This document shows positions 7,469-59,201 of a DNA stretch of 64,000 nucleotides, one piece after another. Made by a program: the position numbers and the translations under genes. The DNA lies in the IMG/VR virus record IMGVR_UViG_3300018411_000022, positions 1 through 64,000 of that record; one strand, given 5' to 3'. This DNA comes from a virus. A model generated the notes under the pieces. That model saw only the letters and a list, made by a program, of their open reading frames with translations, made no database searches and was not told the origin of the DNA. Within the stretch, counting starts at the first letter, position 1, and every line of letters begins with the position of its first letter.

Positions 7469-8947
7469 ATGTTGCCCAGTTATGTAAAGATCGTTCGAGT
7501 TCTGTTCACCCCGACCGGATCTCACAACCCACAGTTCCAACGTCCTTATCACCTGACCAACAACGTGGACAACAACATGGTTGACACGCTGCGTCAGGTC
7601 ACTCAGGAGGGTCAACATATCACCCCCGGTGCACTGGCCCCTTACGCAGGTAGCATCCTGCGTCCTTCGGCTGACGTTTACTGGGACAGTAACATTATCA
7701 GTGGTTGGGATACCCCACGCCTGCGTTTCATGATGGAGGTGGAGATTCAGAATCAAACCGGCTTGGTCAAGCAGTACATGTCGGGGTACACCAACTACCA
7801 AGGCTACCATCGCAATCTGAACAACGTAAGCTTCGACCCGGACATGCAGTTGGTCGTCAACCGCGTGCTCAGCTTGAACCTCGGTGCACAGGGTGGCATC
7901 CGTCTGGCCGGTTCTGATCGAGTCCTCTCGGGTGAGTACAACCCAACCTTCGGTATGGGCGGCGGCGAAACGGTTACGCTGGGTCTGCGTCCAGAGGACG
8001 TGTTCAGCATCATGCAGATTGCAGGACCGGGCAACTACTCCGAACCTGTGATTGATGGTCGTACGGCTTTTGCTGGGAACACACCCAAGTTCTCCACGAT
8101 TGCCAACGACCTGCCCAACCAGTACCTCTCTCGAGTGCTCAAGGGCTCGCTGCCGATCCACAACATCTCAGCGTCCGATGGCATGGCCACCCCGTACGGC
8201 GACACCCTCGATCGTGCGATCGGTCATTACGCCGAGATGAGCATCAACCAAAACCGGATCTTGCACCAGATCATCCAGAACGGTGGTTTCCAAGAAGGGT
8301 GTTCATTCACCTACAAGTGTCTCATGGAAATCGGGTCGAACCATGGCAACCTCGACGATCGCGTCAGTCTGATCGAACCGTCCACCACCGGTGGATTCGA
8401 GATGCCGCTTCACCAAGCAGGTGCCTCGGCCAACTGGAATGCGTCGAACACCGAAGGCATCATTGCACAGGTGATCAGTTCGCAAGTTCCCGCGTTGATG
8501 TCGGACCACTTCCTGACCAAGGTGGCGTTCTCGGCTACCAACCGTACGGTGACCCGTGAGTTCTTGGTTGACCTTCAAGGCGCCCCGTCGTCCTGGCTCC
8601 CCACCCCGGAGATGATCAAGTTCGCCACCAACAGTTTCATCAACCGTTTGATTCACGAGATCCTCACCGGTCTTTCGATCAACAACGCAGTGGACTTCAA
8701 CATCCGTGTCATGATTGACATGTATGGCGAAACCCACATCTTCGCTTCTGTAATGGGAGGTCCTGAGCAGTACTTCTGTGCGCCGTCCTTTGCAGATTCG
8801 CTGACCACCCCGCTGCTCTCGCAAAACGTCAACTACGCCATGCAGTACGTCAGCGACATCGAAAGCTTGGCAAACAAAACTGTGACCCAGGTCGCAAACA
8901 ATCAAAACCCACTCGGAGGCATGAACTATGCTCATTCCACTATATGA
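7469..8947 (+). CDS. conserved phiKZ-type protein, 492 aa (gp69 position)
   Basis: ATG start with TAAGGAAC upstream. A soluble, glycine-rich protein (GGGETVTLGLRPEDVF near 170) with no recognised motif. It lies between the gp68-like and RNAP beta genes, the position of phiKZ gp69, and overlaps the next gene by 20 bases. It may be structural or transcription-linked. Function unknown. Confidence 0.65.
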   Translation: MLPSYVKIVRVLFTPTGSHNPQFQRPYHLTNNVDNNMVDTLRQVTQEGQHITPGALAPYAGSILRPSADVYWDSNIISGWDTPRLRFMMEVEIQNQTGLVKQYMSGYTNYQGYHRNLNNVSFDPDMQLVVNRVLSLNLGAQGGIRLAGSDRVLSGEYNPTFGMGGGETVTLGLRPEDVFSIMQIAGPGNYSEPVIDGRTAFAGNTPKFSTIANDLPNQYLSRVLKGSLPIHNISASDGMATPYGDTLDRAIGHYAEMSINQNRILHQIIQNGGFQEGCSFTYKCLMEIGSNHGNLDDRVSLIEPSTTGGFEMPLHQAGASANWNASNTEGIIAQVISSQVPALMSDHFLTKVAFSATNRTVTREFLVDLQGAPSSWLPTPEMIKFATNSFINRLIHEILTGLSINNAVDFNIRVMIDMYGETHIFASVMGGPEQYFCAPSFADSLTTPLLSQNVNYAMQYVSDIESLANKTVTQVANNQNPLGGMNYAHSTI

Positions 8948-18241: not shown

Positions 18242-19060
18242 TTAAAGGTATTGATAACTTGGCCAATCGTCAGACTTAACCCGACGATAAATGAGGTGTG
18301 TAGCGAGATTCAGTTGCTTAGAAGCAGCTACCACGCTGTCATAAATGGTGCCGTCGATAGACACTTTTTTACTAGCCCCCGAAACGCTGGGGTCGCGCAT
18401 CCGTCCTTCAGCCCACAGTTTCTTGGCTAGAGTACTCCTACGAGCTTTCTCTTCTTCAGAGAAGATCTCTCCACGAGTTCCTTTAGCACACATGTATTTA
18501 TTCAACAACAAAGGGTTGTCAAGGGCATCGGCAATCATTTTCTCTTCAAGAAACCGGGCATGCGTTATCGGATGGGCGAGAATAATATCCCACTTTAATA
18601 ACGAGGAGTCGGGTTTTTCATTAAAGAGTTCCTGAAGCTTCTGACACATGTGTTTACCCTTGTGCAACGTAGACTCATGTACCCTTTTGCGTTGGGCGAA
18701 GTCTTTGCTACTCCCAATGTAGAAATAGCCACTGGGTAAGTGTGTGATACGATACACAACACATACGTTTAAAGCGTTACGTTGGTTGAGCAACAAAGGG
18801 TCGGAATAATGTTTGACTACCATATCCCGTTTAAGCTTCTGTGCCTCCTCTATACTGAAACATGGTTTGACTTCAGTATTCAATACAGGACTTTCATTAA
18901 ACAGTTCTTGGAGTTTTTTGTTGTTATGAAAATTATTATTGAGTCTTCTCAAGTCTTCGGTAACTGTTCGGTAGACATCTTCACTGACACCAATGTAAAA
19001 CGCCCCGCTGTCTTGATGTGTTTGGATGTAAAGTCCAGCAACTTTAGCACGTTTAGACAT
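18242..19060 (-). CDS. GIY-YIG homing endonuclease with duplicated nuclease domain
   Basis: 272 aa, two tandem GIY-YIG-like units. The second (about 98-185) is canonical: VVYRI, YIGSS, the basic helix QRKRVHES and the Glu-bearing FLEEKMIADAL. The first (about 8-95) keeps GLYI/YIG and the shared blocks KLQELFNE and DPLLLN, but lacks equivalents of the catalytic Arg and Glu. A NUMOD3-like stretch (SEEEKARRSTLAKKLWAEG) follows. A NUMOD1-like DNA-binding module (TIYDSVVAASKQLNL, ending in a Trp) closes the protein. It lies 75 bases after the beta-prime fragment and 13 bases before the next gene, with a strong hairpin upstream. Such enzymes spread introns or themselves by cutting intron-less alleles. 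Confidence 0.9.
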   Translation of the reverse strand: MSKRAKVAGLYIQTHQDSGAFYIGVSEDVYRTVTEDLRRLNNNFHNNKKLQELFNESPVLNTEVKPCFSIEEAQKLKRDMVVKHYSDPLLLNQRNALNVCVVYRITHLPSGYFYIGSSKDFAQRKRVHESTLHKGKHMCQKLQELFNEKPDSSLLKWDIILAHPITHARFLEEKMIADALDNPLLLNKYMCAKGTRGEIFSEEEKARRSTLAKKLWAEGRMRDPSVSGASKKVSIDGTIYDSVVAASKQLNLATHLIYRRVKSDDWPSYQYL

Positions 19061-19135: not shown

Positions 19136-20431
19136 TTAGGATATGCTCTTCTTGAAGTCATATCTTGAAGTTGTCAACTGCTTACCGTGCATTGCGCTCA
19201 TGAAGATATACATCATCTGCGACCCTAGGTCAGCCGCCAGCAAACCCAACGCCGTCGGGTTGATCGCATTGGGATTGCCCATGCAACGCTGGCAGAAACC
19301 CGTCTTAGGCGTCTTGCACAACATTGGTGAGCGCACTGTGACTTTTTTACCAATCTGAGATTTGGCGTAGTCTTCAGTGATCTCCTCAGAACCTTGCGGC
19401 GTTACCCGATAAAAGCCCACAAACTTTTTGAAGTTGTGCTCGGTGAATTCTTTCTCCCAACCCAACTTGCTACCACAGTCCTGTTCGGTGATGGTGGTGT
19501 TCTGGAAGACTCGTCCCAAGAACTTCACTGCCTCGCCGCCCAAGGCGGTATCACGACCGCGGTTGTAAGAACCTTCCCGGAGCGAGTTGATCATGTCGGG
19601 CATCTTGTCGACATCCCAACCTTCATTCAGGCTGTTGACCACCAGAGTGGCCTTGGTGCCGTCTTGGAAGCCCATCTCGGCGCCGTGCATCAGGTGCATG
19701 CGTTTACGAACCACACCGTAGGATTTATTCTCCTTCACGAAGAACCCATCACCCCCGTCGGGATCAGATTTCATCCACCCCTTATCCAGAGCAATGAGTT
19801 CAGCCTCCATCTTAGCAATGACGGCCGGGTCCCAGAGACGATCTTTGTTCTTCTCAAGAAGTTCTGCTCGCAACTTACGAGCATCTGGGTGAGTGGTCAA
19901 CATGCGCTTGGTCGCCGAAGGCACACACAATTGAGTGAACCCCGAAATACCAAAGATGGCCTTGTTGAACTTGCGGTAATCATCCGGATAAATCAGCTTA
20001 GGATCACGCTCCCCGTTTTCCGGATAGTCGGCCATCAAAGGACGAATCTTGTTCTGTACAGCGCCAGGCGTGAGCTTACCTGTCATGAACTCGATCCGAT
20101 CACCCAAGGCGTAGACCAACACATAGAAGTTGAAGAAGACGTTTCCAACCGGTACGTTCATTGCCTTTTTGCAATTGGGTACCAAGGCGGGAGTGATGTC
20201 CACTCGATCCGTGAACCGGAATAAGGGTTCTTGGGGTTGGGCATCATCAATAGTGATCAGGTTCTCAGGGTTCTCCGGATCAACAAAGACGGTGTTCTTT
20301 TCCGTACGCAGAAGAGCATAGGGGTAACGTTCTTCCGGACCCTGCGTCACACTGAAGACAGACAGAGCCCACGATTTCTTGCGATATGCGCCTGCGTTAA
20401 GCGCTGCAAAAAGGTAATCAAGCTTGTTCAT
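19136..20431 (-). CDS. RNA polymerase beta-prime C-terminal fragment, probably virion RNAP (phiKZ gp80-like)
   Basis: 431 aa. Near the end it carries the beta-prime block RSPMLCKTPKTGFCQRCMG, a helix ALGLLAADLGSQMMYIF and a trigger-helix-like MSAMHGKQLT. These parallel RSPLTC..GVCAKCYG, VGVIAAQSIGEPGTQL and MRTFHIGG of bacterial beta-prime. It is distinct from the gp74-like copy at 13119, so it likely belongs to the RNAP packaged in the virion that transcribes early genes. The frame stops only about 14 residues after the trigger-like helix, whereas the gp74-like paralogue continues for some 290 residues. It is either naturally split or cut short by the endonuclease-associated insertion. It overlaps the upstream gene by 14 bases. 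Confidence 0.75.
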   Translation of the reverse strand: MNKLDYLFAALNAGAYRKKSWALSVFSVTQGPEERYPYALLRTEKNTVFVDPENPENLITIDDAQPQEPLFRFTDRVDITPALVPNCKKAMNVPVGNVFFNFYVLVYALGDRIEFMTGKLTPGAVQNKIRPLMADYPENGERDPKLIYPDDYRKFNKAIFGISGFTQLCVPSATKRMLTTHPDARKLRAELLEKNKDRLWDPAVIAKMEAELIALDKGWMKSDPDGGDGFFVKENKSYGVVRKRMHLMHGAEMGFQDGTKATLVVNSLNEGWDVDKMPDMINSLREGSYNRGRDTALGGEAVKFLGRVFQNTTITEQDCGSKLGWEKEFTEHNFKKFVGFYRVTPQGSEEITEDYAKSQIGKKVTVRSPMLCKTPKTGFCQRCMGNPNAINPTALGLLAADLGSQMMYIFMSAMHGKQLTTSRYDFKKSIS

Positions 20432-21272
20432 GAGTTACCGCCGAGAGGATTTCGCGCACCTGTTCCATTACTCGAATGATCAGGGGCAACTTAAGGAAGG
20501 TGTCTTCAACCACTTCTTCACTGACACGAAGTAGGTCGGCATCGGCCACATCAGAAGCCAAGATAAAGGCCATGAGTTGCAAAGCCAGTTCGGAGACGTT
20601 GCGATCCAACATCGGATCGGCGACACGTTTTTCTTCGTAGTACGTCCGAAACGCTTCGGCCATGCTGGCAACCGGTAGATTGATCTTACCCCCAGCATCT
20701 ACGTAGGCCAACAGCCACGGGTCTTTCAACTGACTGGTACAACTTTTAATACGTACCACTTTTCCAGTGCGTTGAACGGTGGGGGTATCAAACCCATCGT
20801 CTACTTTATGAACGGTGGTCAGCAAACGCTTCAGGAGCGCCGGGTTGACGTTATCGAGATGAAGCAGTAGATCTTCCACAGTAAACTCGGAAGTCAGCTC
20901 CACGAGCGCTGCGAGCCGCTCCTCGGGCGATTCTTCGGACAGACAGATGGCTTCGATGGTCTCAACGTCATCAAAGTCGTCCAAGGTGTTGATGCTGCGG
21001 ATAATAGCGGTGGCTTGTTTAAGACCAAAGGTCTCATTTAAGAACACACCAAATTGGTTGAGGGTCGATTCCAACAAGTTTTTAATGTAGGCGTCGATCT
21101 CACTGACCACTTGGTCGCGACCAATTTCGCCCTCTTGACTGATCAGACCTTCCAGTTGAACAATGTGCATACTGATCCCGGAGTCCAGAATAACCTGGAC
21201 GGCATCCACATACACTGCAGTCAATTCAGGTGTGATCACCGTACCTAGGAATTCTTCAATTTCTTCTACCAC
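20418..21272 (-). CDS. hypothetical protein upstream of the beta-prime fragment, 284 aa
   Basis: GTG start with CGGAGG six bases upstream. The protein is acidic and strongly helical (EEIEEFLGTVITPELTAVYV), with many Leu/Glu repeats and no catalytic motif. It heads the minus-strand unit and overlaps the RNAP gene by 14 bases, so the two are co-translated. A role with the virion RNAP is an inference from position only. Confidence 0.65.
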   Translation of the reverse strand: MVEEIEEFLGTVITPELTAVYVDAVQVILDSGISMHIVQLEGLISQEGEIGRDQVVSEIDAYIKNLLESTLNQFGVFLNETFGLKQATAIIRSINTLDDFDDVETIEAICLSEESPEERLAALVELTSEFTVEDLLLHLDNVNPALLKRLLTTVHKVDDGFDTPTVQRTGKVVRIKSCTSQLKDPWLLAYVDAGGKINLPVASMAEAFRTYYEEKRVADPMLDRNVSELALQLMAFILASDVADADLLRVSEEVVEDTFLKLPLIIRVMEQVREILSAVTHEQA

Positions 21273-21376
21273 AATAGACCTCCGGTTAAATAATACGACC
21301 TTCCCAAATTATACGAGACCATGCTCGAAAATTGTTCCCGAGCCCACGAATCAATTTACAAAAGGCGGAATACGTT

Positions 21377-21826
21377 ATGTCCCGTAAGCACAACCCTTCC
21401 TACGTCAAGCGTGGGCCGAACAGTCTTAAAGAGCTGATTCAGGAGCGCAAAGACTTCGAAAACATCTGGAATGATCTGAGCCATTTGCAAGCTCAGTGCT
21501 TCCAGCTGAACCAGTCGCCCACACATGTGGTTGCTCTTCTGCGCAATCAGGAACTGGTGGCACGCGTTGCGGATAAAGCTTCGCTGATGCAACTGGCTAA
21601 TACGCTGAATCGCGACGTTCAGGATTTCAGCACACGACTGAATCAACTGAACGCTGCAGTCGATCAACACCGTGGTGGTGTAGTCGACTTGCCTAAGCTG
21701 GCCCTCCTGATGGATGTGGCACAGGCCTACGATCAGTGGATCACGTCATATCAATTGGTCGTGGTGCCGACTGCTATACAGATCACCGACCTCTTCAACC
21801 AACTCAATCAGAACCCGCAGGTGTAA
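21377..21826 (+). CDS. hypothetical helical protein, 149 aa
   Basis: The start at 21377 (MSRKHNPSYVKRGPN) has AAGGCGG upstream and is preferred to 21332. After a basic N-terminus the protein is almost wholly helical, with coiled-coil-like spacing (LANTLNRDVQDFSTRLNQL). It is divergent from the minus-strand RNAP unit and ends two bases before the next gene. Possibly a virion assembly or structural component; not recognised. Confidence 0.65.
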   Translation: MSRKHNPSYVKRGPNSLKELIQERKDFENIWNDLSHLQAQCFQLNQSPTHVVALLRNQELVARVADKASLMQLANTLNRDVQDFSTRLNQLNAAVDQHRGGVVDLPKLALLMDVAQAYDQWITSYQLVVVPTAIQITDLFNQLNQNPQV

Positions 21827-21828
21827 CA

Positions 21829-23346
21829 ATGTCTGAGAACGAACTGCCAACACCCGAGAACGCATCCGAAGAAGGTGCCGAGAACACCTTGAACTCGAAG
21901 TCAACCAGCGACTACGCCCCCAAAGCGGTTAACCTCAATGTTCGTCTTCAGTACCCCATCGACAAACCGTATTCCGGTGCCGATGCCAAAGCGATCTTCG
22001 CAGACCCCAACCTACACCTGACGTTCATAAACGGTACGCTGGGCGATCTGAAAGAAACGGGTGACAACCACCCGAACATCGAGGTCGAAGGCGATGCCGG
22101 TACTCGCCGTTGGGTCGAATCGCTCGAACGTGGTTCTGCCAACCTGCTGCGCAACGAACCCTTCCAAGCAGCGCTGGACCAAGAAGGCGGTGACTGGCAA
22201 CAGACCGTTGAATCGGCTGGTCAGCCCATGGGCATCTCCCGTCCGCGCTTTGCAGAGTCCGGCACTGTCCTGACTGGCGAGCGTGCTGTCATGCGCATGA
22301 CGGCTGCGCTGGGTTTGGGTACCATCCACCAAGTACCGCTGTGGCATACTGGTATCTGGGTCAGTTTCAAAGCGCCGTCTGAAGCGTCGATCCTCGAACT
22401 GGAGCGTCGTGTCGGTTCGGCAAAAGTGACGCTGGGTCGTATGACCAACGGTCTGGTGTTTTCGAACACCGCGGTTCACCTGATCAACGATCTGCTGGAT
22501 TTTGCACTCCAGCACGTCTACGACACCAACGCCAAAGAAATGTCGCCCAAGTACTTGGAAAGCATTGTGTTGGTGACCGATATCCCGTTGATCCTTTGGG
22601 GTCTGGCATCGGCCATCTACCCGAACGGTTACCCGTATTCGCGTGGCTGTATCAACACCGAGAAGGTCTGTAACCATGTGTTCGAAGCCCTGCTGAATCT
22701 CAGCAAGCTGATGTGGACCAACCGTGCGGCGCTATCGGAATGGCAAACCAAGCGCATGACTCAGCGCAAGGCGCGGATGTCCGACGAAGACCTCAAGCGC
22801 TACGCCGAAGAGCACAAGTACAACAAAGAACGTCGGGTGTCCATCACCGACCAAATCGCCATCACTCTGGCGGTCCCAACCATTGAACAGTACTACAATT
22901 CGGGCAACGCCTGGATTGCCAACATCATCAAGGTGATGGAAGGTGCGTTCGGTGAAAACATCCGTGGCGATGAGCGCGATGCCTACATCACCAACCAGGG
23001 GCGTTTGACCAACCTGCGTCAGTACGGCCACTGGGTGAAGGAAGTGCATATCGAAGAGGCAGAGATCGGCACTGACCGTGACACGATCGAAAACCTCATG
23101 GGTGTGTTGACCGCCGATGAAGAGACCCGCACCACCACCTTGGCAGCAGTGAGCGAGTACATCAACTCGGTGACTATTTCGGTGATTGGTCTGCCCAAAC
23201 ATGAGTGTCCGGTGTGTAAGGCCAACCAGGTTAAGGAAGAGGAAGCCCAGTTCAGTCCGTACGTCGTACCGATTGATGTGGCGCAAGTTTTTTTTACCCT
23301 ACTCAACCAACGCATCTACAAGGTACTCATAAAGTCCTCCCTTTAA
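21829..23346 (+). CDS. large structural/assembly protein with C-terminal zinc-ribbon half, frameshift donor
   Basis: 505 aa. The start at 21829 (MSENELPTPENASEEG) follows the previous stop by two bases; the earlier opening at 21736 lies inside the upstream gene. It has an acidic disordered N-terminus of about 50 residues, a large folded centre and, near residue 465, CPVCKANQ, half of a zinc ribbon. At 23289-23295 an in-frame T TTT TTT heptamer precedes a short 17-residue end. Slipping -1 there would join it to the next frame for a 662-aa product, as in phage tail-assembly chaperones. Most likely a tail or baseplate assembly protein; specific role uncertain. Confidence 0.65.
   Translation: MSENELPTPENASEEGAENTLNSKSTSDYAPKAVNLNVRLQYPIDKPYSGADAKAIFADPNLHLTFINGTLGDLKETGDNHPNIEVEGDAGTRRWVESLERGSANLLRNEPFQAALDQEGGDWQQTVESAGQPMGISRPRFAESGTVLTGERAVMRMTAALGLGTIHQVPLWHTGIWVSFKAPSEASILELERRVGSAKVTLGRMTNGLVFSNTAVHLINDLLDFALQHVYDTNAKEMSPKYLESIVLVTDIPLILWGLASAIYPNGYPYSRGCINTEKVCNHVFEALLNLSKLMWTNRAALSEWQTKRMTQRKARMSDEDLKRYAEEHKYNKERRVSITDQIAITLAVPTIEQYYNSGNAWIANIIKVMEGAFGENIRGDERDAYITNQGRLTNLRQYGHWVKEVHIEEAEIGTDRDTIENLMGVLTADEETRTTTLAAVSEYINSVTISVIGLPKHECPVCKANQVKEEEAQFSPYVVPIDVAQVFFTLLNQRIYKVLIKSSL
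23289..23295 (+). other. candidate -1 programmed frameshift site
   Basis: An eight-T run; the heptamer T TTT TTT is in the zero frame of the upstream gene (codons GTT TTT TTT ACC). The -1 frame is open from 23277 through to the stop at 23814. It reads VFFYPTQPTHLQGTHK into the downstream protein, which has no good SD of its own. Confidence 0.5.
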
Positions 23347-23375: not shown

Positions 23376-23816
23376 GTGTTGTTACCGGGCTTCGGGGCAC
23401 GGTTTTATAACAAGCCGACCTTGCTGGATAAAATCCTCGAGCAAGGAAAGCAGTTGGACAATATAGCGGCGCAGGTGGTGATGCGCGATGCCTACGAAAC
23501 CCAATACGGGATTTGTGATCACGGCAGCCCATCTGCTAACCCCTTGGCGTTGGTTGAGTATCAGGCAAAAGAAGATGTGTCAGAATACGGGGCGCTTTAC
23601 CGAACCTTTTATCAGTACCATCTGTACGAGGTTCATAAAGAGTGGGGGGTGTCTATTGTGGACTTCCTCAACATGCCCCGCGAGTACTGTGCTTTAATGT
23701 TACGAATCTCTTCTGAGAAAGCGGCTCGCATGACGGCCGAAACTCAAAAGCAAATTCGAGCAGCCCAACAAGCACAGGCCGCCGCTGGTGTGGGTTTAGG
23801 AGGCGCGAAGCGATGA
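23376..23816 (+). CDS. downstream partner of the 505-aa protein, possibly expressed by frameshift
   Basis: Read alone it starts at GTG 23376 (146 aa), but no SD is visible and its frame is already open from 23277 across the T8 run. It is therefore more likely the -1 extension of the upstream protein. The segment EYGALYRTFYQYHLYEVHKE, then a Trp-Gly pair and FLNMPREYC, resembles the way tail-assembly chaperone extensions and T4 gp26-type hub-assembly proteins read; that similarity is weak. The C-terminus is helical and Gln/Ala-rich. Its stop overlaps the macrodomain start (ATGA). Confidence 0.55.
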   Translation: MLLPGFGARFYNKPTLLDKILEQGKQLDNIAAQVVMRDAYETQYGICDHGSPSANPLALVEYQAKEDVSEYGALYRTFYQYHLYEVHKEWGVSIVDFLNMPREYCALMLRISSEKAARMTAETQKQIRAAQQAQAAAGVGLGGAKR

Positions 23817-24271
23817 TCGTGTATGAAGGCGAAGGGTCCTTGTTTGATACCCGGTTGCAAACTATCACAGCCCCGGTTAACACGGTAGGGGTGATGGGGA
23901 ATGGGTTGGCATTGGCCATGAAACAACGGGTGCGGGGACTCTTTGACTTCTACAAAGATCTGTGTGACAAGGGTGAATTGAAGGTGGGGCAACCCCAACT
24001 GTATAAGATCCCAAAGTCACGTCATCAGGTCCTATTGTTTCCCACCAAAGCACACTGGAAAAATCCGTCTAAACCAGAGTACGTCATCGAGGGGTTGGAT
24101 TACCTTGTGGCGAACTATAAAGAGATGGGGATCACAGAACTGGGGCTTCCGCCTTTGGGTTGTGGTTATGGGGGGCTTGATTACATTAAGTTCCTCCGCC
24201 CCCTACTCCATGAGAAATTGGCGGACATTGACCTTCCCGTCCACATCTATCTGTACAACCGCATCCTTTAA
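23813..24271 (+). CDS. macrodomain ADP-ribosylglycohydrolase, DarG-like
   Basis: 152 aa, a single macrodomain. Diagnostic motifs are PVNTVGVMGNGLALAMKQR near residue 20 (the VN...GVMGxGLA ADP-ribose loop), FPTKAHWKNPSK near 78 and LPPLGCGYGGLDY near 120. These are hallmarks of the DarG/TARG1 branch. DarG removes ADP-ribose that the toxin DarT puts on thymidines in DNA and so neutralises DarTG anti-phage defence. DarG itself has a second DarT-binding domain that is absent here. It overlaps the previous gene by 4 bases (ATGA), so it is co-translated, which would place expression with virion-type genes. Macrodomain identity is strong; DNA as substrate is inferred. Confidence 0.85.
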   Translation: MIVYEGEGSLFDTRLQTITAPVNTVGVMGNGLALAMKQRVRGLFDFYKDLCDKGELKVGQPQLYKIPKSRHQVLLFPTKAHWKNPSKPEYVIEGLDYLVANYKEMGITELGLPPLGCGYGGLDYIKFLRPLLHEKLADIDLPVHIYLYNRIL

Positions 24272-24274
24272 GAC

Positions 24275-24308
24275 TCAGGTGGGGTAACTCACCTGATGTT
24301 TTTTTTTT
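24275..24308 (+). terminator. rho-independent terminator
   Basis: TCAGGTG/CACCTGA stem with an 8-nt loop, then a run of ten T ending in TTTATGCC (24306-24313). It closes the macrodomain transcript; an early promoter follows within 30 bases. Confidence 0.85.
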
Positions 24309-58718: not shown

Positions 58719-58769
58719 GGGTTTAGTGTGAACGTTTTTATCAAAGCGGACAGCGTGAGGGAGGCATCG

Positions 58770-59201
58770 ATGCAAATAGACCTCTTTGCACCTAAGGAGT
58801 CTGGTGTGGTAAGCCTGACCCCCAAAGAGTCAGGTTATCTGGCTAGCTATCAACATCAACCCAATTACCAATACCCTCCGCTGCTGGTGGTTAACGGTGT
58901 TTTGGATGCATATGTAGCGAACCTTCTAAAACGCTCTAAAAACTTGGCAGTATCCTGGTGGCTGATGGGTAGTTACGCCTACTACTACTTGGATGAGACC
59001 ATTATCAGCGATGAGTTCTTTGACTACTTGACCGTTCTGATACGGGAGAACTACTCAACGATTGAACACGTCAATAAAGACCTGATTACTGAAGAACGTC
59101 TCTCGGTGGGGTCTGCGTTTGACTTACGTTTGTACCCAACTCGTGTGATGAGCTGTACCCAACAAATTCTGACACAAATGCGCAAAGTCCGTCCCGATTA
59201 A
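58770..59201 (+). CDS. hypothetical protein, 143 aa
   Basis: The ATG at 58770 has a very strong SD (GAGGGAGG, five bases away) and is preferred to the in-frame GTG at 58728. Starts MQIDLFAPKESGVVSLTPKE; Tyr-rich middle (SYAYYYLDETIISDEFFDYL) and helical end. Its stop codon is in the loop of the following terminator. Function unknown. Confidence 0.55.
   Translation: MQIDLFAPKESGVVSLTPKESGYLASYQHQPNYQYPPLLVVNGVLDAYVANLLKRSKNLAVSWWLMGSYAYYYLDETIISDEFFDYLTVLIRENYSTIEHVNKDLITEERLSVGSAFDLRLYPTRVMSCTQQILTQMRKVRPD

Follow-up and report, generated by a model that had tools for sequence, protein, structure and literature searches.

Macrodomain gene in the window

The window analyzed here is a stretch of 64,000 nucleotides (positions 1 to 64,000 of IMG/VR record IMGVR_UViG_3300018411_000022) and belongs to a virus record of 81 kb, which is a fragment without the chimallin (ChmA) gene. 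A gene at 23813-24271 on the plus strand, starting with ATG, encodes a stand-alone macrodomain of 152 amino acids, and this open reading frame (ORF) lies exactly where a preliminary description of the window had placed it and contains the three sequence motifs quoted there. A ribosome-binding site, AGGAGG (23798-23803, +), can be read within the preceding ORF at a spacing of 9 nt from the ATG, and the stop codon of that ORF overlaps the macrodomain start as ATGA (23813-23816, +). Directly 3' of the macrodomain stop lies a terminator-like hairpin (24275-24308, +) composed of a 9 bp stem (24275-24296) and a subsequent T-run; this is a consensus match only, and such sites in the region are not above the shuffle background.

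The macrodomain ORF does not represent a chance reading frame, because a phmmer search against PDB gives 1.3e-31 to 7omu. Macrodomains with 99% amino-acid identity are encoded on two further contigs, near-copies of 131 kb (L001) and 221 kb (L002), and synonymous changes account for 8 of the 9 nucleotide differences in the gene in one case and for 10 of the 11 in the other. This is a real gene under selection. DNA megablast of the macrodomain region against known phages gave no match.

Sequence comparisons show that the virus is a giant phiKZ-like phage, very probably a nucleus-forming one. The DNA polymerases of phiKZ-type phages share 45% identity with that of the virus. A ChmA relative is encoded in L002 (1.3e-37) and a relative of phiKZ gp069 (PicA), the phage-nucleus import factor, in the window (7469-8947, +; 9.1e-28 with 25% identity at 7484-8914), and these two together point to a nucleus-forming phage (Chimalliviridae). 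A 209 kb sequence filed as a Gammaproteobacteria MAG (L105) shares the RNA polymerase and gp078/gp079 genes and encodes a macrodomain with 53% identity; it has the appearance of a jumbo phage that was binned among bacteria.

Conserved gene row

The gene coupled to the macrodomain (23376-23816, +) encodes a mostly helical protein of 146 amino acids, which belongs to phrog_12109 (2.3e-24), is related to PhiPA3 gp073 and has been found ahead of the macrodomain in 14 or more diverged phages. Upstream of it is a phiKZ gp077-like gene of 536 amino acids (21736-23346, +; phrog_4585, 3.3e-117), the start of which overlaps the final part of the ORF before it, a phiKZ gp078-like gene of 164 amino acids (21332-21826, +) recognized by synteny with PhiPA3 gp075, LucasX, FLC9 and Goslar. 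The AF2 model of the 146-amino-acid protein (pLDDT 75) had no fold match in PDB, and PDB profile searches with this and the gp077-like protein gave nothing usable. The row gp078-gp077-(146 aa)-macrodomain, in which the macrodomain is last, is divergent from a gp079-like gene (20418-21272, -) and a gp080-like gene for an RNA polymerase beta subunit (19136-20431, -; phrog_2962, 3.9e-142); phiKZ gp079 and gp080 are both noted as structural head proteins. Beside the polymerase gene, a GIY-YIG homing endonuclease with an I-TevI-type DNA-binding domain is encoded (18242-19060, -), and PhiPA3 has an endonuclease gene (gp078) in a similar place.

The row including the macrodomain is common to LucasX, FLC9, Goslar and at least 10 IMG/VR contigs, and the 4-nt overlap is identical in L001, L002, L027, L028, L034, L078 and L082. 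PhiPA3 has the gp078-gp077-(146 aa) row with the macrodomain missing from it, and the macrodomain occupies another genomic position in phiKZ, 201phi2-1 and Psa21. In Erwinia agricanviruses it adjoins a RecA-like gene and a DprA-annotated gene; in a profile comparison, the 146-amino-acid and gp077-like genes proved unrelated to the small and RecA-like genes of these phages.

The preliminary description had regarded the macrodomain as coupled through ATGA to a structural or assembly gene. The coupling is confirmed and is also seen in diverged phages, while an assembly function has a single annotation as its only hint: among relatives of the gp077-like gene in 227 phage records, one (gp284 of Erwinia phage AH06) is labeled "baseplate protein", and this gene precedes the coupling partner instead of being the partner itself. 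A virion-assembly or structural role, or mere binding of ADP-ribose, would agree with the coupling and with this annotation, and we nevertheless consider it very improbable: the catalytic residues are invariant (see below), the macrodomain is located elsewhere in phiKZ, 201phi2-1 and agricanviruses, the 201phi2-1 record flags the neighboring gp162 and gp164 as virion proteins (mass spectrometry) but not the macrodomain protein gp167, and the phiKZ macrodomain protein gp104 is reported to be nuclear. As a separate observation, chain M of PDB 21vq (Phi92 gp137, 336 aa) has a weak macrodomain-like match to window positions 23939-24196 (E 0.12), which could be a hint of a virion macrodomain or chance.

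Assignment to the DarG branch

Profile searches with the 152-amino-acid protein gave matches to DarG in PADLOC (2.6e-40) and NCBIfam (1.2e-38) and to Macro in Pfam (2.1e-7). When PDB was searched with phmmer, the DarG/DarTG entries 7omu, 5m31 and 5m3i (1e-31 to 4e-23; 113, 90 and 85 bits) were found, TARG1 obtained 19 bits in the same ranking, and Poa1p gave no match. Foldseek with the AF2 model (pLDDT 95.7) placed DarG first (5m3e, 1.1e-15, rmsd 1.5), followed more weakly by TARG1 (2.4e-10) and then by BT1257, SCO6735 (3.5e-8) and Poa1p (5.7e-8). Profiles, nearest sequences and the predicted fold thus confirm the proposal of the preliminary description that a stand-alone macrodomain of DarG type is encoded here, and its fold, like the active site described below, is well supported.

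In addition to the fold, the DarG macrodomains of T. aquaticus (5M31/5M3E) and M. tuberculosis (5M3I) share 33-37% identity, the catalytic lysine, N22 and the G117/G121 loop with the window protein, which differs from them in being phage-encoded, in having neither a C-terminal DarT-binding domain nor a DarT neighbor, and in the replacement of T20 and K29. The top sequence score (113 bits, 43-47% identity) belongs to the Thermosipho africanus DarTG fusion (7OMU), the chain of which (406 residues) stops soon after the macrodomain, as in the short form found here; this protein is, however, cellular and fused to DarT. The C-terminal DarT-binding domain of DarG is absent from the window protein, as had been stated previously: the ORF stops at 152 amino acids, and the NCBIfam match covers positions 5-146 of the 338 in the profile, i.e., the N-terminal half only. 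In SA002 (L009:4001-4873) and Proteus phage 10 (L010:4001-4831), the macrodomain is fused to differing C-terminal parts in proteins of 290 and 276 aa, respectively.

Active site and pocket residues

The catalytic residues are intact. In the alignment, K79 (codon 24047-24049, +) corresponds to the catalytic K80 of T. aquaticus (Taq) DarG and K84 of TARG1, and N23 (codon 23879-23881, +) to Taq N22; the K80A change kills TaqDarG and N22A impairs it (PMC5179494). Lysine occupies the K79 position in all 62 viral stand-alone, all 18 named-phage and all 58 DarT-linked proteins, and the N23 position is likewise invariant across these groups.

The quoted motifs had been called diagnostic of the DarG/TARG1 branch. 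They are present and indicate DarG specifically, not DarG/TARG1. Of the TARG1 Lys84/Asp125 pair, only the lysine is found, the Asp position being G120 (Gly as in DarG), and the scores to TARG1 are far lower. The Poa1p type, named earlier as the alternative to DarG, is rejected: phmmer gave no match to Poa1p, which carries Ser at the lysine position, and no KptA gene was found in the phage records, the 221 kb near-copy among them.

Two positions of the ADP-ribose pocket are unlike TaqDarG, T20 being replaced by P21 and K29 by N30. Proline at the former position (23873-23875 in the window) was found in 34 of the 62 viral stand-alone proteins and in none of the 58 DarT-linked proteins; judged from these sequences, it may mark a specificity of phage forms for another substrate.

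Linkage with DarT in viral and cellular loci

A scan based on a family alignment covered 80 IMG/VR viral loci and 80 bacterial or archaeal loci with flanks up to 4 kb, and a clear difference in architecture was observed. Macrodomains were short in 62 of the viral loci, and none of these 62 had DarT within the flanks; in contrast, 71 of the bacterial or archaeal macrodomains were long, and DarT was nearby in 46 of the 80 loci. The identity of the neighboring DarT was supported by Pfam. Bacterial relatives with 45-46% identity to the window protein adjoin DarT (e.g., L106). A search for DarT in the window record and in both near-copies (L001 and L002), all three of which are possibly incomplete, found no such gene, and L002 also has no NADAR, Nudix or KptA partner. 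Since both the C-terminal domain and a DarT gene are absent, the window protein is not the DarG antitoxin of a DarTG pair.

Long viral forms were also found, and 12 of the 18 are part of a complete DarT-DarG pair. Viral contigs in which DarT adjoins full-length DarG (L056, L060, L062, L064, L065, L091, L098 and L103) carry phage- or prophage-borne DarTG pairs. These pairs bear on the idea that the window protein is the remnant of a DarTG pair, or an antitoxin taken over from one, and is kept for survival in DarTG-bearing hosts or in co-infections, with no specific adaptation to counter-defense. The viral pair in L098, which adjoins phiKZ-type macrodomains in the tree described below (97/96), also favors this idea. 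We regard it as quite improbable, since the position and active site are conserved across many diverged phages, which argues for a kept function.

Phylogeny and related phage macrodomains

Phylogeny against DarG, which had been proposed as a check, was examined with a quick tree of 135 proteins and a careful tree of 57 proteins. The window protein falls inside the DarG-type set, and TARG1 and Poa1p form very long branches far outside it, the exact root being unsure. In the quick tree, it belongs to a clade (SH-aLRT 98) that is made up largely of stand-alone phage macrodomains and also contains the Thermosipho DarT-fused macrodomain, and the careful tree places it among phage stand-alone forms in a clade that is not starred. 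phiKZ gp104 is found in another part of both trees. Independent origins of phiKZ-type and window-type macrodomains are suggested by this placement, but we do not claim them, as a single clade for both is not rejected (p-AU 0.27).

That phages encode macrodomains is already known. Phage macrodomains are widespread (240 phage records, annotated as "Appr-1-p processing" or "phosphatase") and have been found in 56% of jumbo phages, with small-molecule substrates being favored (Iyer et al., 2022, PMC9503650), and a 2025 structure survey reported viral matches to the DarG macrodomain that lack its C-terminal part. In our comparison, the best NCBIfam match was DarG for all ten phage macrodomains tested, including phiKZ gp104 (L007:5938-6426), which is assigned to the DarG branch at 4.9e-40. 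The "Appr-1-p processing" protein of phiEco32 (Kuravirus) is also stand-alone and shows 45% identity across 96% of the query; this phage is, however, a small podovirus, and its macrodomain gene is beside an ECF sigma factor gene.

phiKZ gp104, PhiPA3 gp108 and 201phi2-1 gp167 resemble the window protein in coming from nucleus-forming jumbo phages, in being stand-alone and in conserving the catalytic lysine and asparagine; they differ in being approximately 30% identical to it and in their genomic and tree positions. phiKZ gp104 enters the nucleus by import and has been described as a "macrodomain of unknown function" (PMC11087766), and its knock-down lowers ChmA (PMC12571901). Others have shown gp104 and gp108 to be nuclear, and among these three proteins and the window protein, import has been shown for these two only. 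In the literature searched, we found no paper joining the DarG branch, the nuclear import of gp104 and the effect on ChmA.

Possible function

We consider there to be an approximately even chance that the 152-amino-acid protein is an ADP-ribosyl hydrolase that erases ADP-ribose from phage DNA and thereby counters DarT. As a macrodomain-only DarG-type enzyme, with neither a DarT-binding domain nor a DarT partner, it would use K79, the DarG lysine, for hydrolyzing the bond between ADP-ribose and the thymidine base in single-stranded phage DNA. Free ADP-ribose would be released and the replication block by DarT undone, making the protein a catalytic anti-DarT factor. The place of use would be replicating DNA inside the phage nucleus, into which the related phiKZ gp104 is imported. 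We infer the hydrolysis, the thymidine-ADP-ribose substrate, DarT as the reason for the gene and nuclear import of the window protein.

An intact active site together with the absence of a DarT-binding domain makes erasure from DNA the most likely action. The DarG macrodomain alone hydrolyzes thymidine-linked ADP-ribose and rescues cells from DarT, and the K80A mutant fails to block DarT (PMC5179494); by analogy, these results fit the earlier proposal that the window protein would act on DNA, not on the toxin. SCO6735 and human TARG1 are also stand-alone macrodomains that remove thymidine-linked ADP-ribose, although their active sites (Gln85 and Lys84/Asp125, respectively) differ and their sequence and fold scores are far lower; SCO6735 also inhibits DarT through binding (PMC9411070).

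Because macrodomains are promiscuous, the substrate is not readable from sequence, and several points count against erasure from DNA. DNA-targeting enzymes are already excluded from the phage nucleus (PMC11797060), so that the need for an eraser of DNA marks is not evident; the P21/N30 changes in the pocket may mean another substrate; phiKZ gp104 sits elsewhere in the tree; and the gene is accompanied by late or assembly-type genes, not by an early counter-defense cluster. The argument that phage macrodomains act mainly on small ADP-ribose signals (Iyer et al., 2022, PMC9503650) also counts against it.

According to that argument, the protein would break down signals or toxins of bacterial immune systems, e.g., Thoeris, which are small derivatives of ADP-ribose (isomers of cyclic ADP-ribose, ADP-ribose-1''-phosphate or O-acyl-ADP-ribose). 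Such destruction has been put forward as what phage proteins of the Macro, NADAR, SLOG and Nudix types chiefly do (PMC9503650, PMC7824862). In AH06, a macrodomain of the same branch lies two genes upstream of the DprA-annotated (SLOG-type) gene. The window also encodes a solo Nlig-Ia, the NAD-binding domain of NAD-dependent DNA ligase (58728-59201, +; PF22745, 2.3e-6), with the rest of the ligase missing; the domain is present in both near-copies, and such solo domains have been proposed to sense or shield NAD+ (Iyer et al., 2022, PMC9503650). We consider this role rather unlikely for the window protein, since characterized members of the DarG branch act on ADP-ribosylated DNA, Nudix, NADAR and KptA partners are absent from L002, and phiKZ gp104 concentrates in the nucleus while the signals act in the cytoplasm.

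Reversal of the ADP-ribosylation that other toxins introduce into RNA or protein (mRNA modification of the CmdT type, toxins that rival bacteria deliver or the ADP-ribosyltransferases (ARTs) of competing phages) is unlikely in our view. Several substrates are known for macrodomains and for SCO6735 (PMC9411070, PMC11833690), and anti-phage ARTs that target mRNA exist (PMC11618068); on the other hand, DarG itself is not known to act on protein (PMC12421852), and the nearest kin of the window protein are DarT-linked.

Significance for nucleus-forming phages

What is new here is the exact branch of the macrodomain, the contrast in architecture and linkage between viral and cellular loci, the conserved coupling and the tie to the nuclear macrodomain phiKZ gp104. 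The routes around DarTG that we found described are AdfB and changes in the polymerase, and repair of the DNA by an eraser would be another kind of strategy. AdfB of ICP1 and AdfA of T4-like phages are phage proteins countering DarTG, as is proposed here for the window protein; AdfB (77 aa) is thought to abrogate DarT via direct interaction, not by erasure of marks (PMC11481870), while the macrodomain protein of the window is twice as large.

Assignment to DarG gives a testable function to the nucleus-imported phiKZ gp104, which is listed as unknown in the literature. We tentatively propose, as a possibility still more doubtful than probable, that nucleus-forming phages import a DarG-type DNA de-ADP-ribosylase into the nucleus for keeping replicating DNA free of DarT marks, and that this is the role of phiKZ gp104 and the window protein, which would then represent a new catalytic class of anti-DarT factors. 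The assignment to DarG also suggests that the phage nucleus excludes DNA ADP-ribosylation incompletely, or that the phage must handle it before the nucleus forms. If the proposal is true, the phage nucleus would be backed by an enzymatic repair layer.
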